Position numbers and translations under genes: made by a program. Positions 21,665 through 34,765 of a stretch of DNA of 64,000 nucleotides are shown piece after piece. This stretch comes from Lentimicrobiaceae bacterium. Its GTDB lineage: Bacteria > Bacteroidota > Bacteroidia > Bacteroidales > F082. The stretch's first letter is position 1, and every line of letters begins with the position of its first letter. The stretch spans positions 1 through 64,000 of the forward strand of contig SUWU01000006.1 of assembly GCA_015061295.1 (NCBI GenBank), written 5' to 3'. The notes beneath the pieces were generated by a model that made no database searches, was not told the origin of the DNA, and worked only from the letters and a program-made list of their open reading frames with translations.

Positions 21665-23272
21665 ATGAGATACATCAAATCTTTATTACTTTCCCTGTTG
21701 ATTGCCTTTAATATGGTGGCAATGGCTCAGAATAATGAGCATAATAAGATAGACCCTAAGACGACAATACAGAAGATGACTACGATGTACTATCTTATTA
21801 ATAATTTTTATGTCGATACTGCTAATCTCGAGGCTCTTACCGAAGATGCTATAGTCGCTATGCTTAAGGAGTTGGATCCTCATTCGGCTTACATATCTAA
21901 GAAAGATGTTCAAAAAGCTAACGAGCCTTTGGAAGGTAGCTTCGAGGGAATAGGCGTTACATTTCAGATATTTCAAGATACGATATTAATAGTGTCGCCA
22001 GTGCCAGGTGGCCCATCAGATAAGGTGGGTATTATGTCTGGCGATAAGATTATCACAATAGATGGTGAGGATGCCTTCGGGAAGAAAATCAATAACGAAT
22101 ATGTGACTGAACATATACGTGGTAAGAAGGGAACGAAAGTGACTCTTGGCATCAAAAGAGGTGATAGTGACGAACTTATAGATTATGAGGTGACGAGAGA
22201 TAAGATTCCATTGAATAGCATCAATGCTTATTTTATGCTTGACGAAAACATTGGCTATATCAAGTTAGATCGTTTTGCGAAGACCTCTATGAAAGAGTTT
22301 AAAGAAGCACTCGAAGAGCTTGAAGAACAGAAGATGAAGTCGTTAATACTCGACCTGAGAGGTAACAATGGCGGTTATCTTAATGTGGCATTTGAGTTGG
22401 GTAATATGTTCCTCGATAAAGGTATGACTGTAGTTTATACCGAAGGCGACAAGAGTCCGAAGCAGATTTTTGAGACAGATAAGAAAGGCGACTTCGCAAA
22501 AGGAAAACTCGTGGTGTTGATAGATGAAGGCTCTGCGTCGGCGAGCGAGATAGTGTCGGGAGCGATACAAGATTGGGATAGAGGCGTCTTGATAGGACGA
22601 CGCTCCTTCGGCAAAGGTCTCGTCCAACGACCTTTTAATCTCCCCGATGGCTCCATAGTACGACTTACTACAGCACGATATTACACTCCAACAGGACGCT
22701 GCATACAACGTTCTTACGAGAAAGGAACAGAAGACTATTATAACGAGATGACTAAACGCTTCGATCACGGAGAGTATTATCATGCTGATAGCATTCAATT
22801 TCCCGACTCTCTTAAATATGAGACTCTTGTGAGTGGAAGGACCGTCTATGGCGGAGGAGGCGTCATGCCCGATATATTCGTACCTATCGATACAACATTC
22901 GCTACTAAACTTTATACCGACCTTATCAGAAAAGGAATATTTAACCAATATGCTATTGATTATGTGATGGATAATAGAGAAGCGCTAAAAGAGAAATATC
23001 CTGACTTCTCCTATTATGAAGACGATTTCGTGATAACAGACGAGATGATTGACGACTTTAAAAATGCAGCAGAAAAGAAAGATATAAAATGGGATGAAGA
23101 ACAATTTCTACGCTCAGAAAAGATGATTAAGTTGCAGCTTAAAGCTATGATAGCACGCAATGAATGGGATATGGAAAAATACTATAAAATCATCGCCGAA
23201 GACGATAAAATGATAGGCAAGGCAATAGAAATTTTAAACGATAAAAATCAGTATAAAAAGTTGTTACAATGA
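21665..23272 (+). CDS. S41-family C-terminal processing peptidase (CtpA/Prc-like)
   Basis: 535 residues with signal peptide 1-22 (ending MAMAQ) and a PDZ domain at about 85-170 (EGIGVTFQIFQDTILIVSPV, VGIMSGDKIITIDG). The protease core carries the Ser/Lys dyad S292 (GSASASE) and K317 (SFGKG), spaced 25 residues as in plant D1 processing protease. It acts in the periplasm, cutting C-terminal tails of proteins. Long C-terminal helical extension (about 400-535) is usual for Bacteroidetes homologs. It is immediately upstream of the gingipain cluster but separated by a good -7 box, so it is probably a separate transcript; whether it processes T9SS cargo is speculation. Confidence 0.93.
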   Translation: MRYIKSLLLSLLIAFNMVAMAQNNEHNKIDPKTTIQKMTTMYYLINNFYVDTANLEALTEDAIVAMLKELDPHSAYISKKDVQKANEPLEGSFEGIGVTFQIFQDTILIVSPVPGGPSDKVGIMSGDKIITIDGEDAFGKKINNEYVTEHIRGKKGTKVTLGIKRGDSDELIDYEVTRDKIPLNSINAYFMLDENIGYIKLDRFAKTSMKEFKEALEELEEQKMKSLILDLRGNNGGYLNVAFELGNMFLDKGMTVVYTEGDKSPKQIFETDKKGDFAKGKLVVLIDEGSASASEIVSGAIQDWDRGVLIGRRSFGKGLVQRPFNLPDGSIVRLTTARYYTPTGRCIQRSYEKGTEDYYNEMTKRFDHGEYYHADSIQFPDSLKYETLVSGRTVYGGGGVMPDIFVPIDTTFATKLYTDLIRKGIFNQYAIDYVMDNREALKEKYPDFSYYEDDFVITDEMIDDFKNAAEKKDIKWDEEQFLRSEKMIKLQLKAMIARNEWDMEKYYKIIAEDDKMIGKAIEILNDKNQYKKLLQ

Positions 23273-23309: not shown

Positions 23310-23317
23310 TATATTTG
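23310..23317 (+). promoter_or_regulatory. -7 box of the gingipain-family gene cluster
   Basis: TATATTTG, an exact TAnnTTTG match, 31 bp before the likely start codon of the first protease. A TTG at 23294 is too close for a standard -33 element. The three protease genes downstream are spaced by 15 and 13 bp and would share this promoter. Confidence 0.55.
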
Positions 23318-23348
23318 CGAAGTGTAAATTTATATCTAAAACTTGAAT

Positions 23349-26306
23349 ATGCTTATGAAAAGACAAACTTTATTACTACTCTTGACGCTGCTTGTAAATG
23401 TGATAAATGCACAGGGACGCATCGACCTCGATGCGAGTAATAGGGGTAACACTATCCAAGCCTCGTCTTTTGAAAAAATAAGAGCTACGTTTTCGTATAA
23501 TAGTGTGGAGAGCGAACGTGTCGCCACTGAAGCAGGGGAGTTCTCTGTCATATCATTAGATGGCACTGTGGCAGGTGGTAATTATGGCGCTCCTGCTCTG
23601 CCAATATCTCGCAAACTCGTGGCTGTACCTTTCGGAGCTACCCCTGTGATAAAGGTAATCGATTATACTACCGTAGATTATAATCTCGACGATTATGGGA
23701 TAAGTAAGATATATCCTCATCAACCGTCACAGAGTAAAGCGACGAAAGCTGAAGATGTAGTGTTCTACTACGACGAAATGGCTTATCAAACAAGATCGAT
23801 GACCGAGCAACCTAAGACTTCCTTTGAGTTGTTGGGAACGATGCGAGGAGTGAGGCTCGGAGCTTTGCAAATAGAACCGACAAGTTATAATCCTACAAAT
23901 AATACATTACGAGTATTCAATGATATAAAGATAGAGATAACATTCGAGAACGCAGATCAAAACCTTACAGAACAAACCCTCCTCAAAACCTATTCACCTT
24001 ATTTCGATGTTATCTATAACCAACTCTTTAATGCAAGAACTATCAGCGATTTTTATGACAAACACCCCGACTTGCTGAAAACTCCAGTCAAAATGCTCGT
24101 TATTGCAAATCGTATGTTTGAGGATGTTATGCAGCCTTGGATAGAATGGAAAACCCAGAAAGGATTCTATCTCGATGTTAAATTCACCGATGAAATAGGA
24201 ACATCATCAGACGACATCAAGTCATATATTAGACAACAATATGAGTTGGAGGCTCCAACTTTTGTGATATTGTTCGGCGATGAGGAGCAATTGCCGCCGA
24301 GCAAGATTTCGGGTGTAGAAACACAAAGAGTAACAGATAACTACTATTCCACATCTGACGACGATTATATGCCTGACATGTATTGTAGCCGTATGTGTTG
24401 TGAGACGGTGGAAGAGATGGAAGACTTGATAGAGAAGGTGCTTCAATACGAACAATATACTATGCCAGATCCTTCATATCTTAGAAATGCTCTGTTGATA
24501 GCAGGCTTCGATTATTGGTATAATCAAGAAGTAGCACAGCCTACAGTAGAGTATGTGTCAAATTATTACTATAATGAAGATCATGGTTATGATAATGTAT
24601 ATAAATACTTAGATTCTCCATATACAGGATGTTACGATCATCTTAGCGAGGGAGTGGGTTTTGCGCTTTATACAGCTCATGGATTAGAGACGCTATGGGA
24701 TGACCCGAGATTTGCTGTGTCGGACGTGCCTAACTTAACCAATACCGATAAATATTTCTGGGCAGTGGGAAACTGCTGTAACTCTGGCGACTGGGGCTAC
24801 AATGCATCTAAGAGTTTAGGTGAAGCTATGATATGTGCAGAGAAGAAAGGCGCATGGGGTTATATAGGCTCATGCCCTGTGACATATTGGTATGAAGATT
24901 ATTACTTTGCAGTGGGAGCTACTTATGTCACAGGTGAGATGCCTGAATATAATGAGACTACCGCAGGATGCTACGATGCCTTGTGGTCAGACTCTTATAA
25001 TACCCTGTCGTCGGTGATGTATTCTGGAAACCTCGCTGTTACATATTCTCATCTCAACGATTATTCCTCGTCAGTGACATCGAAGTATTATTATGAAGCC
25101 TATCATACTCTCGGTGATGGCTCTGTGATGCCATATCGCGCAAAGCCTTTCGCTAACGAGGTGTCGCATCTTTATACCATACCTGCAGGAGTAGAGTCGT
25201 TTGAAGTGAAAGCAGCTCCAGGTTCTTATGTGGGTATCTCTGCCAATGGAGTACTCTATGGAGCAGGAATGGTAGATGATACAGGAATAGGTAATATCCC
25301 TATAAGTGACATCTCAGGAGGACAAGAGTTGACCATAGTGGTGTCTCACCCTAATCATTATCCTTATAGAGAAACAATATCTTCAGAAGCAATAGAAGGA
25401 ACTTGTATCATGTTTGGCTCATGCCGTATCAACGATGATAACGGTAAACTCGATAGTGGAGAGAATACCTCTCTGTCGTTGGATATTGTTAATGTTGGTT
25501 CTGAAGATGTGTCTGATGTCGAGCTAACTCTCACGACGAACTCCGAATATATCACGATGATAAATAATACAGCTACAATATCTTCATTGGCAAGTGGAAA
25601 GAAAGTGACTGTCAATGATGAATTCATGTTTGAAGTAGCAGCAGATGTGCCAGATCAGACTATGATAGATTTTAAACTTGTGGCGATGACAGGTGATGAG
25701 TCGTGGGAAAATGAGTTCTCAATAGCAGCAAATGCGCCTGCACTGACGATAAGTGATGTCGTTGTGTCTGGCAATGTTATTAATCCAGGGGAGACCGTCG
25801 TGATGAAGTTTGAGGTAAGAAACGAAGGCGGTGGCACAGCATACGATGTGCTGGCAAATATATCATGTAACCCGGAGGATATTAAAATAATACAAAAGAG
25901 TTTTACTAAAGATGAACTATTACCTGATGGTGTGATGTCGGTGTCGTTGAACATATTCATTCCATCAACGGTGGTAAATGGTTCTATGTATCAAGTAAAT
26001 ATTGATGTGTCCTCATCACAATATTTTGCCAATAAAGTTTATGACCTTCTTGTGGGTACCATAGCTCTCGATGAAAATACTGATGAACAAAAGATAGAAT
26101 TGTATCCTAATCCTACATCAGGGATGTTGAATTTCAATATAGATACAAATGTTAATGTCGTGGTGTATAATCATCAGGGACAGGTGATGATGAGATATGT
26201 TGACTGTAAAAATCAGATTGACATCTCTAATCTTAAGTCAGGCATATATTTCGTGGAGATTAATAATGAAAGAAATCATATAATTGAGAAAATAATTTTG
26301 AAATAA
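23349..26306 (+). CDS. Gingipain-family cysteine protease (C25), Kgp-like, T9SS-secreted
   Basis: 985 residues from the ATG at 23349 (23355 is also possible; a TTG at 23343 is less likely). A signal peptide (about 1-22) precedes a C25 propeptide (to about 235) and a caspase-like catalytic domain (about 250-620). An Ig-like domain (SYVGISANGVLYGAGM), a CARDB-like beta region (about 690-900) and a type-A T9SS sorting domain (last 75 residues, LYPNPTSGMLNFNID) complete it. Catalytic His is H444 (YTAHGLET) and Cys is C477 of GNCC. The S1 Asp of lysine-gingipain is kept (D517 in YWYEDYYF). All three align with Kgp H444, C477 and D516, predicting cleavage after Lys. There are no haemagglutinin domains, so it is shorter than Porphyromonas Kgp. 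First gene of a three-protease cluster. Confidence 0.9.
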   Translation: MLMKRQTLLLLLTLLVNVINAQGRIDLDASNRGNTIQASSFEKIRATFSYNSVESERVATEAGEFSVISLDGTVAGGNYGAPALPISRKLVAVPFGATPVIKVIDYTTVDYNLDDYGISKIYPHQPSQSKATKAEDVVFYYDEMAYQTRSMTEQPKTSFELLGTMRGVRLGALQIEPTSYNPTNNTLRVFNDIKIEITFENADQNLTEQTLLKTYSPYFDVIYNQLFNARTISDFYDKHPDLLKTPVKMLVIANRMFEDVMQPWIEWKTQKGFYLDVKFTDEIGTSSDDIKSYIRQQYELEAPTFVILFGDEEQLPPSKISGVETQRVTDNYYSTSDDDYMPDMYCSRMCCETVEEMEDLIEKVLQYEQYTMPDPSYLRNALLIAGFDYWYNQEVAQPTVEYVSNYYYNEDHGYDNVYKYLDSPYTGCYDHLSEGVGFALYTAHGLETLWDDPRFAVSDVPNLTNTDKYFWAVGNCCNSGDWGYNASKSLGEAMICAEKKGAWGYIGSCPVTYWYEDYYFAVGATYVTGEMPEYNETTAGCYDALWSDSYNTLSSVMYSGNLAVTYSHLNDYSSSVTSKYYYEAYHTLGDGSVMPYRAKPFANEVSHLYTIPAGVESFEVKAAPGSYVGISANGVLYGAGMVDDTGIGNIPISDISGGQELTIVVSHPNHYPYRETISSEAIEGTCIMFGSCRINDDNGKLDSGENTSLSLDIVNVGSEDVSDVELTLTTNSEYITMINNTATISSLASGKKVTVNDEFMFEVAADVPDQTMIDFKLVAMTGDESWENEFSIAANAPALTISDVVVSGNVINPGETVVMKFEVRNEGGGTAYDVLANISCNPEDIKIIQKSFTKDELLPDGVMSVSLNIFIPSTVVNGSMYQVNIDVSSSQYFANKVYDLLVGTIALDENTDEQKIELYPNPTSGMLNFNIDTNVNVVVYNHQGQVMMRYVDCKNQIDISNLKSGIYFVEINNERNHIIEKIILK

Positions 26307-26321
26307 ATCTAATTTAAACCT

Positions 26322-29300
26322 ATGAAGAGAATATTATTATTTACAATCATGTTGTGCGTGTCTATGTTTGGATACTCACAGAAATGGAATGGTTTGAAAA
26401 GCGACATTCCTACTAATGTAAAGAAGACTTTGGTGTCATCGTCAGATAAAGAAGTCGTTATCGATGTTAAAGTCGATGGCTACTATTCTACGACAGTTAC
26501 AACACCAAAAGGAAAGCAGATGATAATATCGGCAGACGATATGGCATCAATGCTTAAAGCAGGAGCTCCTGATCTCCCGATGTTCCCTGTCTCTATAATC
26601 ATCGATGACAATGCAGAGATGGAAGTGTCGGTGCTCAACGCAGAATATACCGATATTGAAGGTGTAGAGATAGCTCCATCGAAAGGTAACCTCAATCGTA
26701 AAGTCAATCCTAATGATGTAGAATATGTCTATGGCGAGATGTATCAACAAGACGCTTTCTACCCAGCACAACAGGCTGCATTGGAGACACCTTATATACT
26801 GCGTGACTTCCGCGGACAAAATATTATGGTCTATCCTTACGCATATAACCCTGTCACCAAGACATTACGTGTCTATACTCATATGACCATCTCTGCTAAG
26901 AAAGTTAGCGACAACGGAGTGAACAAGAAAGTGGCATCGCGAAAAGCAAGAACAACAATAGACCCTGAAGTTAATGAGTCTTATAAACGTCGTTTCATCA
27001 ACTATGAGGCATCAGCAAAAAGAAGCTACTTACTTGACGAAGGAGAGATGCTTATTGTATGTGTAGATGAATATTTAGATGAGGTTCAGCCATTGGTAGA
27101 ATGGAAGAACATATCAGGACGTCCAACAAAGATTGTGGCTGTGTCAGAAACTGGAACTGAAACACAATTGAGGAATTATCTCACTAACTATTATCAAGAA
27201 AATCCAGACTTGACGTATGTCTTGTTAGTCGGAGAATATGACGACCTTCCACCTTATTATGTAGCTTATTCTCTTGAGTCGGATAATTATTACGGAATGT
27301 ATGAGGGTAACGATTATTATGAAGAAGTTTTTGTAGGTCGTCTTCCTGTTGCTAATGAGGCAGATGCTGTAGTACAAGTCAATAAGATTATTCGTTATGA
27401 ACGTGATATAAAAGAAGATGCTACATGGTTGTCGAAAGGTTCTGGAGTAGGTGCTAATGAGGGTGATGGAAGAGGCCATTTTGGTGAAGCTGATTATGAA
27501 CATATCGACTTCATCTGTGATACCCTCTTGAACTATACATATACCGACATCTCAAAACATTATGAATATATCAATGGTCCAACTGCATCAGGTATGGTCA
27601 GCGACTTTAGTCAAGGTGTCGGTCTCATCAACTATTGTAATCACGGACTTCCAACAGGTTGGGCAGTGGCTAACTTTGATGTCAGTAATGTACATCAGCT
27701 GACAAACGACAATATGCTTCCTGTGATATGGTCTGTGGCATGTAACAATGGACAATTTGATTATACTGAATGTTTCGCTGAGTCATGGATGCGTGCTACC
27801 AATCCTTCAACGGGTGCAGCAACAGGTGCTATAGGAGGCATGTTCTCATGGATAGCTCAGCCTTGGGTTCCTCCAATGCACGGACAAGATGAGATGGTGA
27901 ATATCTTGACAGAGTGGCGCCCTAACTATAAACATACTCTCGGAGGCGCTTCTTTGAATGGTAATATGTACATCCTCGACGTCTGCCCAGAAGATTATGG
28001 CGAGACACATAACTCTTGGCTCTTGTTCGGCGACCCTTCTATGATGATGAGAACAAAAGCTCCAGAATCAATGAATGTCACCTATTCTCCTTCAGTAATG
28101 CTTGTCGGAATGTCTTCTATGTCAGTCAGTGCTGATACAGAATTTGGTATCGCTACATTGTCGATAGATGGCGAAGTAATAGCTTCATCGTATGTGGAAA
28201 ATGGAGAGGTGAACTTTACCTTCCCTGCATTAAACGAGGTGAAACCATTGAAACTCGTCGTGATAGGATATAATAAAGTCACAGAAGTAAAAGATATAGA
28301 GGTGATACCAGCAGAAGGCTCTTTTGTGGTATGTGAAAGTTATGACCTTAATGATGACAATGGACAGTTAGACTACGGAGAAAACGTGAACATCTCTTTG
28401 AATCTGAAAAATATTGCTACAGAGACTGCCAATAATGTTAAAGTGGAATTGTCAACAGAGTCGGAGTATATCACAATAAATAATGCTGAAACAACAGTGT
28501 CTGAGATAGCATCAAACGAAGTGGTGTCAGTAGATAACCAGTTGAGCTTTAGTGTGGCATATAATATTCCAGATAGAACACCTGTGAAGTTTAATGTCAA
28601 GTGCTCTAATGACTCAGAGGAATGGTTTAGCGATTTTACTATAATAGCTCACGCTCCTGTCATCACAATAGATAATTTAGCAATAGACAATGCTATTGGT
28701 GAGTTATTGCCAGGAGAGACCTCAACATTTACTGTTACCTTCAGTAATACAGGTAGTAGCACTGCTAAAGATGTGAAGACTTACTTAGAAAGTAGCTCCT
28801 CTGACGTGACTTTTGAAAACGTGACATTAGAAACAGATATGGCTATACCAGGAGAACAATATCAAGTAACAACAAATATAACGGTATCAGAGTCAGCGGT
28901 AAATGGTGCCTTGTACCAGGTAGGTTGTAAAGTACAGTCAGGAGCCTATTCTACATTTGGTGAATTTGAATTGTATGCTGGTATGATAAAAGACGACTTC
29001 GAGACAGGCGATCTGTCAACATTTGAATGGAATGATGGAAACGCTGCATGGTCGGTCATAGAAGGTGGATATGAAGGAGAATATTGTGTGGCATCTCCTG
29101 CAAACGGACAAAATAACAAGACATACACTTTGTCACTTACAGCAGAGATATTCTCAGAGGGTTTCGTCAGTTTCTATAGAAAAGTATCATCAGAAGAAGG
29201 TTACGATTTCTTGACATTCTCTATCGACAATAAGGAATTAGGTAGCTGGACGGGTGAGGCTGACTGGGCAAAAGTGGAATATGAAGTAGAAAGCGGTCTC

Positions 29301-29648
29301 CATAACTTCAAGTGGGAATATGTGAAAGACGTCTCATCAAGTGATGGTGACGACAGAGCTTACATCGATTTCGTACAATTCCCTCCATTGTTAGTGTTTA
29401 AAGTCGATGTGGAAGAGGTTGTAGAAGATAATAACGTAACAGTATATCCTAACCCAACAACAGGTATCGTCAACATCGATGTTGATACTCGCTTCGACGC
29501 TGTGATATATAACTATCAAGGTCAGATGGTGATGAAACTGAACGATAAAGATGGTCAGATTGATATAACAAATCTTACATCAGGAATGTATCTGATCGAG
29601 ATAAGAACTGATGAAAATATTATGATTAAGAAAGTCATAAAGAAATAA
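26322..29648 (+). CDS. Gingipain-family cysteine protease (C25), Rgp-like, with adhesin module and T9SS domain
   Basis: 1108 residues: signal peptide 1-20, propeptide (about 21-225), C25 catalytic domain (about 235-590), Ig-like domain (to about 670), CARDB-like repeats (about 670-885), a cleaved-adhesin/MAM-like module (about 890-1030, DDFETGDLSTFEW) and a type-A T9SS sorting domain (about 1035-1108, VYPNPTTGIVNIDVD). Catalytic H441 (NYCNHG) and C474 (VACNNGQF) fit RgpB H211 and C244. The pocket residues D391 (EADYEHID), W515 and M519 (PWVPPMHGQDEM) match RgpB D163, W284 and M288, predicting cleavage after Arg. 15 bp after the Kgp-like gene; closely related to the next gene throughout, so a tandem duplicate. 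Confidence 0.92.
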   Translation: MKRILLFTIMLCVSMFGYSQKWNGLKSDIPTNVKKTLVSSSDKEVVIDVKVDGYYSTTVTTPKGKQMIISADDMASMLKAGAPDLPMFPVSIIIDDNAEMEVSVLNAEYTDIEGVEIAPSKGNLNRKVNPNDVEYVYGEMYQQDAFYPAQQAALETPYILRDFRGQNIMVYPYAYNPVTKTLRVYTHMTISAKKVSDNGVNKKVASRKARTTIDPEVNESYKRRFINYEASAKRSYLLDEGEMLIVCVDEYLDEVQPLVEWKNISGRPTKIVAVSETGTETQLRNYLTNYYQENPDLTYVLLVGEYDDLPPYYVAYSLESDNYYGMYEGNDYYEEVFVGRLPVANEADAVVQVNKIIRYERDIKEDATWLSKGSGVGANEGDGRGHFGEADYEHIDFICDTLLNYTYTDISKHYEYINGPTASGMVSDFSQGVGLINYCNHGLPTGWAVANFDVSNVHQLTNDNMLPVIWSVACNNGQFDYTECFAESWMRATNPSTGAATGAIGGMFSWIAQPWVPPMHGQDEMVNILTEWRPNYKHTLGGASLNGNMYILDVCPEDYGETHNSWLLFGDPSMMMRTKAPESMNVTYSPSVMLVGMSSMSVSADTEFGIATLSIDGEVIASSYVENGEVNFTFPALNEVKPLKLVVIGYNKVTEVKDIEVIPAEGSFVVCESYDLNDDNGQLDYGENVNISLNLKNIATETANNVKVELSTESEYITINNAETTVSEIASNEVVSVDNQLSFSVAYNIPDRTPVKFNVKCSNDSEEWFSDFTIIAHAPVITIDNLAIDNAIGELLPGETSTFTVTFSNTGSSTAKDVKTYLESSSSDVTFENVTLETDMAIPGEQYQVTTNITVSESAVNGALYQVGCKVQSGAYSTFGEFELYAGMIKDDFETGDLSTFEWNDGNAAWSVIEGGYEGEYCVASPANGQNNKTYTLSLTAEIFSEGFVSFYRKVSSEEGYDFLTFSIDNKELGSWTGEADWAKVEYEVESGLHNFKWEYVKDVSSSDGDDRAYIDFVQFPPLLVFKVDVEEVVEDNNVTVYPNPTTGIVNIDVDTRFDAVIYNYQGQMVMKLNDKDGQIDITNLTSGMYLIEIRTDENIMIKKVIKK

Positions 29649-29661
29649 AAATAATAATTAA

Positions 29662-32600
29662 ATGAAAAAACTATCATTGTTAATGGTAATGCTCATGATG
29701 TTGACATCATGGGCATTTTCTCATGAAGAGAACGGCGTGAGAAAAGATGCGCCAGTAAAAGTGAAGAAGACCTTAGTGTCGTCATCGGAGAATGAAATCA
29801 TCATTGATGTTAAAGTAGATGGCTACTTCGCAACAGCAGTCAATACACCGAAAGGACAACAGTTGGTACTCAGTGGTGATGATATGGCAGCTATGCTCGT
29901 TAAAGGCGCTCCCGACATCCCGATGTTCCCCGTCCCTATCATCATCGGCGACAAAGCTGAGATGCAAGTCAATATCATCGACTCAAAATATGTCGATATT
30001 GACAATGTGGAGATAGCTCCGTCAAAAGGTAACATCAGCCGACAAGTAAATCCTGATGAGGTGGAATATGTCTATGGTGAGATGTATCAACAAGATGCTT
30101 TCTACCCTGCACATCAAGTATCATTGGAGGCTCCTTATATCTTACGCGATTTCCGTGGACAAAATATCATGGTTTATCCTTACGCATATAACCCTGTCAC
30201 AAAGACATTACGTATCTATACTCAGATGACAATATCTGCTAAGAAAATAAGCGATAACGGAGAAAACCAGAAAATATCACGCAGAAATAATAGAGTGGAC
30301 TCTGAGATAGCTGTTTCCTATGAAAGACGTTTCATCAACTATTCTAATGATAGATACTCGTTTCTTGATGATAATGGCGAGATGCTCATAGTCTGTGTAG
30401 ATGAATATTTAGATGAACTACAAGACCTCGTCGATTGGAAAAATATATCCGGTCGCCCGACATCTATAGTGCCTGTCTCAACAACAGGAACCCTCGACCA
30501 ACTGAAATCTTATCTTCAAAGTTATTATATCTCACATCCAAACCTTACTCATATTCTCTTGGTAGGAGAACATAACAATCTCCCAGCTTATCCTACTACC
30601 GTGATAAATGGATTTACCACAGCAAGAACAGATAACTACTATGGACAGTTAGAAGGCGACGACCTTTATATGGATGTCTTCATCGGTCGTCTCTCGGTAG
30701 CTAATGAGATAGATGCAGAGAATCAAGTCAAGAAAATAATCTACTATGAACGCGACATCGACGAGACAGCTTCTTGGCTAAGCAAAGGTATTGGTATAGG
30801 CTCGGTGGAAGGTAACGGACACTATGGAGAAAAAGACTATCAACATATCGACTTTATCCGCGATACTTTGATGAATTATACTTATCAAGAGATATCACAG
30901 AGATATGAAGGCGTGTATAGCGCCACAACAGCTGATATTACTGCCGATTTTAATAATGGTGTCGGTATAGCTAATTATTGTAACCATGGTACAAAAGATA
31001 GCTGGGTCATCGCTAACTTCAACACTACATGTGTTAATAATCTTACTAATGACTACAAACTGCCTTTCATCTGGTCGTCAGCATGTTATAACGGTCAGTT
31101 CGATTATAATGAATGTTTCGCTGAGTCATGGCAAAGAGCTGTAAACCCTGCGACGGGTGCTCCTACAGGCGCGATAGGCGGCATGTTCTCCTGGATCTCA
31201 CAGCCTTGGATCCCTCCTATGTATGGGCAAGATGAGATGGTTAACATCTTGGCAGAATATCGTAGCGGTTACAAACATACACTCGCTGGCGCATCATTGA
31301 ACGGTAATATGTATATACTCGATATGTCGCCCGATGACAATGGTGACACCTATAAGACTTGGATTCTCTTCGGCGACCCATCGTTGATGCTCAGAACAGA
31401 AACACCTCAAAAAATGAATGTCGATTGCGATAATACCTTATATCTCGGAATGACAGAGATGCTCGTCAATGCAACAACAGACTATGGTATCGCTACATTG
31501 TCGATGAATGGTGAGGTGATAGCTTCCGCTAACATAGAAAACAATATGGCAAAACTCAACTTCTCAGCTCTTGATACACCAGGCATCGCTAAACTTGTGG
31601 TGATAGGATACAACAAAGTTACAGAGGTGATGGACATCAATGTATCTCCTGCAGAAGGTGCTTATCTCGTATGTACAGGCTATGAGTTAAATCAAGAAGA
31701 CGGACAATTAGATTATGCCGAGACAATAGAACTTTCTTTGTTGGTGAAGAATATAGGTGGTGAGAAAGTAGAGAATGTCAATGTGAAATTGTCATCAGAC
31801 TCTGAGTATGTGACAATACTTGATAATGAAGCCTCGATAAACGCCTTACCATCAAAATTGACAGCTACTATCAATAAAGGATTTAAGATTGTGGTAAGCC
31901 CATCTGTCCCAGATCAAACGATAATTCCATTTGAAGTTGAATGTACAACAGCTTCTGAGACATGGAATAGCGAGGTTTATATCACAGCTAACGCTCCTTT
32001 ATTCGTGATAGATAACGTATCAGTAGTATCTGAAAATCCTGTCTTATATCCAGGCGATAAAGCGACACTTCGTTTCGATATTACTAACGATGGTAATAGC
32101 GTGGCAAATGATGTTATGACAGAGATATTCAGCAGCTCCGATGATATTATCTTCGATGCAACATCAATTAAAGAGGAACAGATAGGTGCGAGAGAGTCAT
32201 TCGTCGTGACATCAGACTTTACATTATCAGATGCTACTGAAAACGGCTACTCCTACGAGATAGCTTATTCTGTGTCTTCAGGAAATTACATCACAGACTC
32301 TACTTTCTTCATCAATATAGGTTCTGTGTTTGAAGACTTTGAATCAGCTGGATTTGACAGCTACGAATGGGAGTCAGGCGGTTCTGCTCCATGGACGATA
32401 AGCGGTGGCGCATATGAAGGCAGCTACTGCGCAAAATCGGGTGCCATAGGCGACAATCAATATTCGAGCATGTATCTCGTGATGGATATTCCTTCAGCAG
32501 GTGAACTGAGCTTCTACAGAAAGGTGTCTTGCGAATGGAAATTCGACAGCCTTTTATTTATGATAGACGGTAAAGCTATTGACGGCTGGCATGACTTCGT

Positions 32601-33225
32601 AGATTGGGGAGAGGTGTCTTATACATTGCCTCCAGGAACACATACACTGGAATGGCGATATGATAAAGATCCAGCAGACTCTGGAAAAGATGACTGCGGT
32701 TATATCGATAATATCACCTTGCCTCCTTTTAATATTGTTACATCTCTCGCTGCAGTGGAGAACCTTACAGCAACAATAGAAGAGACTGCCGTGACATTAT
32801 CGTGGGATGCAAACAACAACGCTGACGAATATATCATCAGACGCGATGGAGTAGAAGTGGCAGTGCAAAGCGAGACTACATTCACAGAGACATTAGATAA
32901 AGGTGTTTATACTTATAGTGTGGTGGCAAGAAATGGTAAAAACTATTCTTTACCAGCTTTCGTGGTAGCCAATATCGATATGGTGTCGCTTAATGAAATA
33001 TCAATGTCAAATGTCAATGTCTATCCTAATCCTACAACAGGAATATTAAATGTTGATATTGATGAGAACTTCGATGCTGTCGTTTATAACTATCAAGGTC
33101 AGGTGATGATGAAGAAAAACGACAATAACAGACAATTGAATCTCTCAAATCTCACAGCAGGAATATATTTCGTTGAGATAAGGACAGAAAATAATGCTTT
33201 TGTTAAGAAGATAGTGCTGAGATAA
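29662..33225 (+). CDS. Gingipain-family cysteine protease (C25), Rgp-like, with adhesin, Fn3 and T9SS domains
   Basis: 1187 residues with the same order as the preceding protease, plus an Fn3-like domain (about 1030-1100, ENLTATIEETAVTLSWDAN) before the T9SS sorting domain (about 1115-1187, VYPNPTTGILNVDID). Catalytic H442 (NYCNHG) and C475 (SACYNGQF), pocket D392 (EKDYQHID), W516 and M520 (PWIPPMYGQDEM): the Arg-specific Rgp pattern. The propeptide is nearly the same as in the preceding gene (shared GEMYQQDAFYPA and APYILRDFRGQNIMVYPYAY-type blocks), pointing to recent duplication. The two differ most in the adhesin module, where binding may have diverged. Last gene of the cluster, ended by a hairpin terminator. 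Confidence 0.92.
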   Translation: MKKLSLLMVMLMMLTSWAFSHEENGVRKDAPVKVKKTLVSSSENEIIIDVKVDGYFATAVNTPKGQQLVLSGDDMAAMLVKGAPDIPMFPVPIIIGDKAEMQVNIIDSKYVDIDNVEIAPSKGNISRQVNPDEVEYVYGEMYQQDAFYPAHQVSLEAPYILRDFRGQNIMVYPYAYNPVTKTLRIYTQMTISAKKISDNGENQKISRRNNRVDSEIAVSYERRFINYSNDRYSFLDDNGEMLIVCVDEYLDELQDLVDWKNISGRPTSIVPVSTTGTLDQLKSYLQSYYISHPNLTHILLVGEHNNLPAYPTTVINGFTTARTDNYYGQLEGDDLYMDVFIGRLSVANEIDAENQVKKIIYYERDIDETASWLSKGIGIGSVEGNGHYGEKDYQHIDFIRDTLMNYTYQEISQRYEGVYSATTADITADFNNGVGIANYCNHGTKDSWVIANFNTTCVNNLTNDYKLPFIWSSACYNGQFDYNECFAESWQRAVNPATGAPTGAIGGMFSWISQPWIPPMYGQDEMVNILAEYRSGYKHTLAGASLNGNMYILDMSPDDNGDTYKTWILFGDPSLMLRTETPQKMNVDCDNTLYLGMTEMLVNATTDYGIATLSMNGEVIASANIENNMAKLNFSALDTPGIAKLVVIGYNKVTEVMDINVSPAEGAYLVCTGYELNQEDGQLDYAETIELSLLVKNIGGEKVENVNVKLSSDSEYVTILDNEASINALPSKLTATINKGFKIVVSPSVPDQTIIPFEVECTTASETWNSEVYITANAPLFVIDNVSVVSENPVLYPGDKATLRFDITNDGNSVANDVMTEIFSSSDDIIFDATSIKEEQIGARESFVVTSDFTLSDATENGYSYEIAYSVSSGNYITDSTFFINIGSVFEDFESAGFDSYEWESGGSAPWTISGGAYEGSYCAKSGAIGDNQYSSMYLVMDIPSAGELSFYRKVSCEWKFDSLLFMIDGKAIDGWHDFVDWGEVSYTLPPGTHTLEWRYDKDPADSGKDDCGYIDNITLPPFNIVTSLAAVENLTATIEETAVTLSWDANNNADEYIIRRDGVEVAVQSETTFTETLDKGVYTYSVVARNGKNYSLPAFVVANIDMVSLNEISMSNVNVYPNPTTGILNVDIDENFDAVVYNYQGQVMMKKNDNNRQLNLSNLTAGIYFVEIRTENNAFVKKIVLR

Positions 33226-33250
33226 TTTGTAAAAAAAACATTGTAAAAAA

Positions 33251-33286
33251 AGGCGAAGGAGATTGATTTTCTTTCGCCTTTTTTTT
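33251..33286 (+). terminator. Terminator of the gingipain cluster
   Basis: AGGCGAA (33251-33257) pairs with TTCGCCT (33273-33279), extended by further pairs. It is followed by a run of T to 33286. Confidence 0.8.
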
Positions 33287-33293
33287 ATATTTG
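33263..33293 (+). promoter_or_regulatory. Promoter of the beta-CASP nuclease gene, embedded in the terminator
   Basis: TTG (33263-33265), 20-bp spacer, TATATTTG (33286-33293). The -33 part lies in the terminator loop and the -7 box starts at the end of its T run. The start codon is 66 bp downstream. Confidence 0.6.
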
Positions 33294-33358
33294 CAAAGGA
33301 AATTGGAAATTGTCACAAAGAAGATAATCATTGTTAAATAACATAAAAATTGAATGAT

Positions 33359-34765
33359 ATGGAAATTAAATTTATCGGTGCAGCAAGAGAAGTGACGGGA
33401 AGTAAGCATCTCATTACCACTCGTCATGGAAAGAAGATACTCCTCGATTGCGGAATGTTTCAGGGTAAAGGCTTGGAGACAGACTCCTTGAATCGTAATA
33501 CTATGGTTGACCCAGCTGAGATTGACCATATCATTTTAACTCACGCTCACATAGACCACTCTGGATTGATACCTTATTTCTATAAAAGAGGTTTTAGAGG
33601 CTCTGTGATATGTACGCAGGCAACACGTAACCTTTGTTCTATCATGTTGCCTGATAGTGGCTTCATTCAGGAGAATGATACACATTGGTTCAACAAGAAA
33701 AGAGCTCGTCAAGGCTTGAAGCCTGTCGATCCTATCTATACAGAGAAAGATGCTCGCGAATGTATGGAACTCTTTATCAGCGTGCCTCTTAACCGTCAGT
33801 TTTATATCGATAACAACATAAAAGTTAAATTCACCAACACAGGGCACCTGCTTGGTAGCGCAGCTGCAACGATAGAGATTGATGAGTTTGGAACTGTGAC
33901 ACGTATCGGTTATACAGGTGATATAGGACGTGGTAATAACTATCTTCTCCGCGCTCCAGATGCTTTCCCTCAATGCGATTACCTTATTGTGGAAAGTACA
34001 TATGGCGATAGACTGCATCAGAATAAACAGTTATCGGAAGACGAATTGTTAAGAATTATTAAGCATACTTGCGTAGAAAAGAAAGGAAAACTTATCATAC
34101 CTTCCTTTGCTATTGGCAGAACTCAAGAGATAGTATATATCTTAAATAATTTTTACAATGAAGGTAAACTGCCGATATTACCTATCTATGTCGATAGTCC
34201 TTTAGCTGTCAATGCTACCAATATCTTCCGTATGCACCTCGATTTGTTTAACAAAGATGTGGCAGAAGTCCTCGAACACGACGATGATCCATTTGGCTTT
34301 GGAACGCTGAAATATATAACGAATGTAAATCATTCAAAAGCCTTAAATCACAGAGAAGAACCTTGTATCATCATCTCAGCATCGGGCATGATGGAGGCTG
34401 GTAGAGTTAAACATCATATAGCAAATAATATCGATAATCCAAAGAACTCTATTCTCGCTATCGGCTACTGCGCTCCAATGACTCTCGGGGCTCGTATCTT
34501 AAATGGAGAGAAGGAAATATCTATTCATGGAATGCCTCACAAAGTAAACGCAGAAGTCTTTAGCATCGATGCTTTCAGCGGTCATGCAGACTATCAGGAG
34601 ATGGAAGAATATCTCCGTTGCCAGAACCCTGAAAAAGTGAAGAAACTATTTATCGTCCACGGCGAATACGAGGCACAGCTGCCTTACAGCAAGGTGTTAG
34701 AAAAAGCTGGCTTTAAAAATATTGTCATTCCTAAAGCTGGAGAGGTATTTACCATTAAGAATTAA
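33359..34765 (+). CDS. Beta-CASP metallo-beta-lactamase-fold RNA hydrolase
   Basis: 468 residues from the ATG at 33359 (MEIKFIGAAREVTGSKH); a TTG nine bases earlier is less likely. It has the metal-binding motif HAHIDHSG (HxHxDH), further ligands in NTGHLLGSA and YTGDIGR, a beta-CASP insert (about 180-370, PSFAIGRTQEIVYIL, ASGMMEAGRVKHH) and a closing RMMBL segment with FSGHADY and IVHGE. This is the YSH1/CPSF73-like bacterial family of RNA exo/endonucleases; the natural RNA target in Bacteroidetes is not known. It lies alone between a combined terminator/promoter and a bidirectional terminator shared with pyrF. Confidence 0.92.
   Translation: MEIKFIGAAREVTGSKHLITTRHGKKILLDCGMFQGKGLETDSLNRNTMVDPAEIDHIILTHAHIDHSGLIPYFYKRGFRGSVICTQATRNLCSIMLPDSGFIQENDTHWFNKKRARQGLKPVDPIYTEKDARECMELFISVPLNRQFYIDNNIKVKFTNTGHLLGSAAATIEIDEFGTVTRIGYTGDIGRGNNYLLRAPDAFPQCDYLIVESTYGDRLHQNKQLSEDELLRIIKHTCVEKKGKLIIPSFAIGRTQEIVYILNNFYNEGKLPILPIYVDSPLAVNATNIFRMHLDLFNKDVAEVLEHDDDPFGFGTLKYITNVNHSKALNHREEPCIIISASGMMEAGRVKHHIANNIDNPKNSILAIGYCAPMTLGARILNGEKEISIHGMPHKVNAEVFSIDAFSGHADYQEMEEYLRCQNPEKVKKLFIVHGEYEAQLPYSKVLEKAGFKNIVIPKAGEVFTIKN

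Follow-up and report, generated by a model that had tools for sequence, protein, structure and literature searches.

A tandem of three C25 peptidase genes occupies the forward strand of a Lentimicrobiaceae contig (GenBank assembly GCA_015061295.1, SUWU01000006.1), of which positions 1 to 64,000, hereafter the window, were analysed. The first gene (23349..26306) encodes P1, a Kgp-type or Lys-gingipain-like protease zymogen of 985 amino acids. It is followed by the genes for two Rgp-type, Arg-gingipain-like zymogens, P2 (26322..29648, 1108 amino acids) and P3 (29662..33225, 1187 amino acids). The gaps between P1 and P2 and between P2 and P3 measure 15 and 13 bp, exactly the spacing given by the original prediction, which had been made from the sequence alone. 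Profile scores, PDB matches, key residues and a phylogenetic tree underlie these assignments. Matches to the Peptidase_C25 profile reached 183.2 bits for P1, 193.5 for P2 and 178.4 for P3 (cut-off 23) and are not due to chance.

All three proteins have the same domain order. A hydrophobic N-terminal stretch resembling a signal peptide (judged by eye) precedes the gingipain pro-domain of about 200 residues (Propeptide_C25, PF08126), the catalytic domain (Peptidase_C25), a C-terminal immunoglobulin (Ig) domain (Peptidase_C25_C, PF03785), weaker Ig-like matches and a type IX sorting tail. Propeptide_C25, Peptidase_C25_C and Por_Secre_tail scored above cut-off in each protein, and the sorting-domain model TIGR04183 gave 46.9, 44.4 and 55.6 bits for P1, P2 and P3 (cut-off 23). 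An extra domain of about 140-150 residues lies ahead of the sorting tail in P2 (28974..29426, + strand) and P3 (32314..32727, + strand). The two copies share 41% identity; a counterpart is missing from the shorter P1. A profile of these two sequences alone, which distant kinship could escape, gave no PDB match up to E 1, and Pfam offered no relative. A link to the cleaved adhesins of Porphyromonas gingivalis was sought in this way without success; their family PF07675 had no match at E up to 0.001, and none up to E 1 in the C-terminal parts.

The host genome (2.10 Mb, 63 contigs) holds six C25 matches: P1-P3, two further proteins and the type IX sortase PorU, which is encoded on contig C28. 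PorU was recognized with 1196.5 bits (cut-off 420) and SprA with 2560.6 bits (cut-off 200). Sorting domains together with PorU and SprA, the two type IX components searched for, mark P1-P3 as predicted cargo of this secretion system. Contig C63 (locus L006 / L098; L, G, C and f numbers are working labels for loci, genomes, contigs and families) encodes a C25 protein of 1145 amino acids that is weakly Rgp-like (best BLAST match to P2/P3 255 bits) and is not PorU (38.9 bits). On contig C28 (L005 / L097), some 3 kb away from the match to PorU and on the opposite strand, lies the gene for a 618-amino-acid C25 protein with a sorting tail.

Separation into one Kgp-like and two Rgp-like proteases, as originally predicted, was borne out by PDB scores, tree and pocket residues. 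In sequence searches of the PDB, P1 matched the Kgp catalytic chain with 443.9 bits versus 104.7 for RgpB, and the Kgp pro-domain with 177.9 bits. The order was reversed for P2 (RgpB 295 versus Kgp 46 bits; RgpB pro-domain 118.5) and P3 (RgpB 274.9 versus Kgp 43.1 bits; RgpB pro-domain 121.7). The PorU model yielded 21.9, 57.3 and 50.2 bits for P1, P2 and P3 (cut-off 420). A catalytic-domain tree of 118 rows, set beforehand as the check on the prediction, placed P1 with Kgp (Shimodaira-Hasegawa-like approximate likelihood ratio test, SH-aLRT, 99) and P2 and P3 with RgpB (94); every Kgp-type row fell on the Kgp side and every Rgp-type row on the RgpB side. Kgp grouped with the host genus and families f35 and f82 (95), then with f4 (99). 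RgpB was sister to the host genus with families f33 and f49 (95). The tree search was a quick one, and PorU served as a long outgroup; the genus was represented by 21 loci, and the order-level Kgp-type rows were randomly thinned to 26.

RgpB numbering includes H211 and M288. According to one RgpB study, D163 binds the Arg beneath W284, which acts as a lid, and the His is printed as 221 (PMC4357240). For Kgp, a triad of C477, H444 and D388 is described; D516, T442, W513 and the carbonyl of N475 bind the substrate Lys, against which W513, A451 and C476 pack (PMC6426963). By alignment, P1 has equivalents of C477, H444, D388, T442, N475, C476, W513 and D516 (the last two as W514 and D517), that is, all of these S1 and triad residues except position 451. 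The predicted motifs were recovered letter for letter: YTAHG at 441-445 (H444), GNCC at 474-477 (C477) and YWYEDYYF at 513-520 (D517) in P1; EADYEHID (D391), NYCNHG (H441), ACNNGQF (C474) and PWVPPMHGQDEM (W515, M519) in P2; EKDYQHID (D392), NYCNHG (H442), ACYNGQF (C475) and PWIPPMYGQDEM (W516, M520) in P3. The named S1 residues are also kept in nearly all relatives examined. The Kgp-type comparison comprised 179 distinct proteins (62 from the same genus, 52 from named loci, 65 from other families) and the Rgp-type comparison 121 (85, 10 and 26, respectively). Among the former, H444, C477, N475, W514 and D517 are invariant, C476 occurs in 176, D388 in 178, and position 442 is Thr in 172 and Ser in 7. 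Among the latter, H441, C474 and W515 are invariant (P2 numbering), position 391 is Asp in 117 and Glu in 4, and position 519 is Met in 106, Gln in 11 and Leu in 4. On good grounds P1 is predicted to cleave after Lys, and with equally good reason P2 and P3 are predicted to cleave after Arg.

In pro-RgpB, a loop inserts pro-Arg126 into the S1 pocket as a pseudo-substrate, and full activation requires cuts at pro-Arg126 and then at pro-Arg229, as far as the accessible text of that study goes (PMC4357240). The inhibitory-loop column holds Lys130 in P1 and Lys in 179/179 Kgp-type relatives; it holds Arg126 in P2, Arg127 in P3 and Arg in 121/121 Rgp-type relatives. Its flanking columns are variable, and equally constant columns occur a few places off (Gln125 in 178/179, Gly122 in 121/121). 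The Kgp or Rgp type was assigned with profiles of the catalytic domain whose seeds were chosen by full-length BLAST, so the loop residue is a largely, not wholly, independent check on the typing.

The Kgp-then-Rgp tandem is a real, conserved module outside Porphyromonas, which recurs across an uncultured genus of gut bacteria and in further families of Bacteroidales. C25 matches were present in 173/173 family genomes searched. With P1 as query, matches were found in 99/99 genomes of the genus, with E below 1e-220 in 98 and only 3.6e-35 in G085. Same-genus loci were picked by Kgp-type matches (58 loci in 56 genomes), and in 52 of them the first C25 gene to follow on the same strand is of the Rgp type, within 300 bp in 38 and within 3 kb in 14; five lack it and one lies at a contig edge. 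Among 60 loci in 58 genomes of other families, an Rgp-type gene follows within 300 bp in 22 and further off in one, while 13 end at a contig edge. A scan of named genomes, from which the best 80 of 355 relatives were kept, returned uncultured Bacteroidales or Bacteroidia, including Candidatus Limimorpha caballi and bacterium F082. Many of these 80 loci are the same contigs as in the same-genus set; 41 have the tandem, 29 have none and 10 lie at an edge. They derive from 65 isolates, 39 with the tandem. Where stated, their source titles give rumen or other stomach parts, hindgut and faeces of cattle, buffalo, yak, goat, sheep, deer and horse, which points to the herbivore gut as the probable habitat of the window organism.

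With each distinct Kgp-type domain entered a single time, the Kgp-type gene comes first in 84 of the adjacent pairs spaced by up to 3 kb (51 from the same genus, 9 from named loci, 23 from other families and the window pair) and the Rgp-type gene in 3 (L258, L260 and L296, all other families); no pair lies on opposite strands. Coordinates read by eye in a further 40 genomes, without profile check, gave at least 19 Kgp-first and at least 2 Rgp-first pairs (G518, G406); one more Kgp-first pair was read in the same way in G312. Copy number varies across loci (KR, KRR, KRRR, KKR and others, with K for Kgp-type and R for Rgp-type). Head-to-tail runs of two to four long C25 reading frames (about 1400-2200 amino acids), mostly Kgp-type, occur at L161, L168, L171 and L182; the L168 run includes one cut piece of 329 amino acids, and the L171 run ends in an Rgp-type frame of 1758 amino acids. 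Kgp-type and Rgp-type distances within loci correlate (80 pairs; Mantel r 0.77 overall, 0.48 in other families, 0.50 in the near set; p 0.001 each). Joint inheritance would give such a correlation, and shared species history would give it equally. For the near set, and likewise for position 451, junction-state changes and junctions with or without a neighbour, the same genus was pooled with the 80 named loci, which include other names, e.g. bacterium F082 and a 'Muribaculaceae bacterium'; the Mantel set also contains the short loci L197-L256. Where a recount by strict groups (same genus, named, other families) gave different numbers, those of the recount are used.

A promoter-like element, TATATTTGC (23310..23318, + strand), ends 30 bp 5' of the P1 start codon. 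It fits TAnnTTTGC, the -7 motif of Bacteroidetes; no clear -33 element was seen by eye. The window contains 23 such sites against 12.86 expected, a number equalled in 1 of 100 shuffles. On the + strand none occurs from 23319 to 33285, and the next one (33286-33294) follows directly after a hairpin with a T run that resembles an intrinsic terminator (33245..33285, + strand), 19 bp past the P3 stop codon. Eight terminator-like sites against 6.2 expected were found in a 14-kb stretch, and the stem at 33245-33285, with 18 pairs, is the longest by far. A sigma-70 scan returned 67 promoter-like sites against 47.8 expected in the stretch, on both strands and some within the array, and decides nothing. 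The short gaps, the upstream TATATTTGC, the lack of an internal + strand motif and the terminal hairpin fit a single transcription unit P1-P2-P3; its predicted operon status, like the predicted Lys and Arg specificities, is a well-founded reading of the sequence.

With a probability of about 0.73, the array is transcribed as a unit and yields a matched trypsin-like set of C25 zymogens, one Lys-specific and two Arg-specific, inhibited by their pro-domain loops and activated at the junction between pro-domain and catalytic domain. A single transcript would yield Kgp-type P1 and Rgp-type P2 and P3, and the zymogens would be exported by Sec and then by the type IX secretion system. They would be kept inactive by the loop, which is expected to place a Lys (P1) or an Arg (P2, P3) in the enzyme's own S1 pocket. 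Activation would then be a cut at a basic residue at the junction. The likely role would be to provide peptides for nutrition in the herbivore gut by cutting extracellular protein behind Lys and Arg residues.

The junctions read NAR-TIS in P1 (Arg230), AKR-SY in P2 (Lys233-Arg234) and NDR-YS in P3 (Arg231). Since all three hold Arg, the Rgp-type enzymes of the window genome could start themselves and would then activate P1. An Rgp-first cascade operates in P. gingivalis. As read from primers printed in one report, the Kgp and RgpB propeptides of that species end in Arg (PMC3677877). Within the same genus, Kgp-type junctions (n=62) have Arg in 56, Lys in 4 and no basic residue in 2; of the Rgp-type junctions (n=85), 60 carry Lys and 25 Arg. 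With named loci counted as well, the Rgp-type gene that comes first after a Kgp-type gene shows Lys at this site in 48 cases and Arg in 9. Among 51 distinct same-genus pairs, 37 are crossed (Arg on the Kgp-type, Lys on the Rgp-type protein), 8 have Arg on both, 4 have Lys on both and 2 have a Kgp-type junction without a basic residue. In the many relatives with crossed junctions each enzyme would need the other, which hints at mutual activation in those species. Named loci included, the Rgp-type tree requires at least 11 changes of the junction state and the Kgp-type tree at least 7, so the pattern is not one inherited accident. The window array is not crossed, and an Rgp-first cascade is therefore the likelier order in its genome. 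Basic residues at these junctions agree with the suggestion in the original prediction that the locus could serve as a self-processing set.

Several observations weigh against this reading. P1 has Asp451 where Kgp has an Ala packed on the Lys side chain. Position 451 in the 179 Kgp-type relatives is Ala in 70, Ser in 61 and Gly in 22; Ala451 is thus no strict mark of the type, but Asp occurs in none and is odd, so the specificity or rate of P1 may differ. P1 is also short, with 988 residues from stop to stop versus 1101-1246 in all 51 distinct Kgp-type open reading frames of same-genus tandem pairs, and it lacks the domain present in P2 and P3. The support of 94 for the Rgp side is below the star level of the tree program, and the search behind it was quick. 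In other families, the Kgp-type gene of 24 of 60 loci lacks an Rgp-type gene as its next downstream neighbour. Their Kgp-type junctions (n=65) hold Lys in 31, no basic residue in 24 and Arg in 10, so the activation scheme is not uniform. The crossed pattern was found in 0/23 other-family pairs, which limits the reading of mutual activation to the genus. A tie between Arg at the Kgp-type junction and an Rgp-type neighbour was considered and rejected, since Arg is present in 49/54 junctions without such a neighbour versus 48/60 with one; this speaks against a tight link of junction residue and gene order. Across the Rgp set, a conserved basic residue also occurs about 18 residues before the GEML motif, and a basic residue is thus not unique to the junction.

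Recurrence of the Kgp-then-Rgp order in other families leans towards an ancestral rather than a parallel arrangement. Assembly of the array several times within Bacteroidales, not once, is the most serious alternative, although rather less likely than not. Two rather different Rgp-type subclades stand behind Kgp-type genes (e.g. L285 and L310 versus L311 and L316), a Kgp-type gene stands alone in many families, and the three other-family loci mentioned above are Rgp-first. An S41 C-terminal processing peptidase gene adjoins P1 directly upstream (21665..23272, + strand). The same gene lies directly 5' of the tandem Kgp-type gene in 43/52 same-genus and 31/41 named tandem loci; its presence in 0/22 tandem loci of other families also favours repeated assembly. 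Shared order and strand in distant families are, on the other hand, more simply explained by one origin with losses.

Repeated local duplication, with genes that act independently and an order without function, is unlikely. Variable copy number agrees with it, as do the independence of the junction residue from the neighbour and the correlated distances within loci, for which species history alone could suffice. The deep split between Kgp-type and Rgp-type branches shows that their adjacency is not a fresh duplication, and the ratio of 84 Kgp-first to 3 Rgp-first distinct pairs and the short gaps in other families too argue against it. Quite improbable is the third alternative, generic C25 peptidases of other specificity whose likeness to gingipains is family membership: the family is broad, as its presence in every family genome searched attests, 'gingipain-like' is loosely applied to exported sediment C25 proteins in the accessible part of one study (PMC6752024), and P1 has Asp451, but scores, tree, S1 residues and loop Lys or Arg agree, and other C25 proteins of the host genome, e.g. 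PorU, were told apart. Just another C25 cluster was rejected as a description on the same separation of the two types by profile score, tree and loop residue.

The matched, loop-inhibited set remains the preferred reading, and a history may be sketched for it, although we regard this sketch as doubtful. An ancestral Bacteroidales Kgp-Rgp array would have been built by the gut genus into a mutual switch, in which each enzyme frees the other's pro-domain and the two are jointly required for full activity. The simpler Rgp-first order of activation would have been kept or regained in P. gingivalis and in the window genome, and the genes of P. gingivalis would have been scattered.

Downstream of the array, the next gene (33350-34765) encodes a beta-CASP metallo-hydrolase that scored 421.9 bits on the NCBIfam type VII CRISPR Cas14 model (cut-off 800) and 318.9 bits on the aCPSF1 model (cut-off 580.2). 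It is probably an ordinary beta-CASP ribonuclease. Searches of the window for tRNA genes and with Rfam gave no matches.

In P. gingivalis, the genes kgp, rgpA and rgpB lie at separate loci. P1 resembles Kgp of this species in its pro-domain, catalytic and Ig domains, sorting tail, loop Lys and side of the tree. It differs in Asp451 instead of Ala, in having no cleaved-adhesin match and in its array with Rgp-type genes, and its near relatives are gut Bacteroidales, not Porphyromonas. P2 and P3 resemble RgpB (gingipain R2) in a pro-domain with loop Arg, the equivalents of D163, W284 and M288 with the His/Cys dyad, the Ig domain, the sorting tail and the side of the tree. They differ in being two copies behind a Kgp-type gene and in carrying, ahead of the tail, additional Ig-like domains and one domain that belongs to no known family; most of their same-genus relatives, P2 and P3 themselves excepted, also differ in having junction Lys instead of Arg. 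PorU has the C25 domain in common with P1-P3 and is encoded on another contig.

Exported gingipain-like C25 genes are described as abundant in estuarine sediment in the part of the sediment study available (PMC6752024). Vaginal Porphyromonas are stated to have no gingipain orthologues in the accessible text of another report (PMC8861167). A phylogenetic study of Porphyromonas, as far as its accessible sections go, ties Lys-gingipains to P. gingivalis alone among adhesin-linked PF10365 proteins, and elsewhere notes that a very small number of P. gulae strains have gingipains as well (PMC10394638). In the partially consulted open-access literature, a coverage that leaves out most subscription journals, no Kgp-Rgp tandem outside Porphyromonas was found described.

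Most of what is known about gingipains concerns their role as virulence factors in a single oral pathogen. Here, the Kgp S1 signature is widespread in an uncultured gut genus and stands beside Rgp-type partners, which places the origin of gingipains in a testable setting outside disease. The array recurs in the same genus and in other families and is thus not peculiar to the window genome; the finding is more general than the original prediction supposed. The junction residues give a clear prediction of which enzyme would activate which. The Lys-then-Arg order in many uncultured relatives points to a common module, which may be able to cleave and thereby activate itself.

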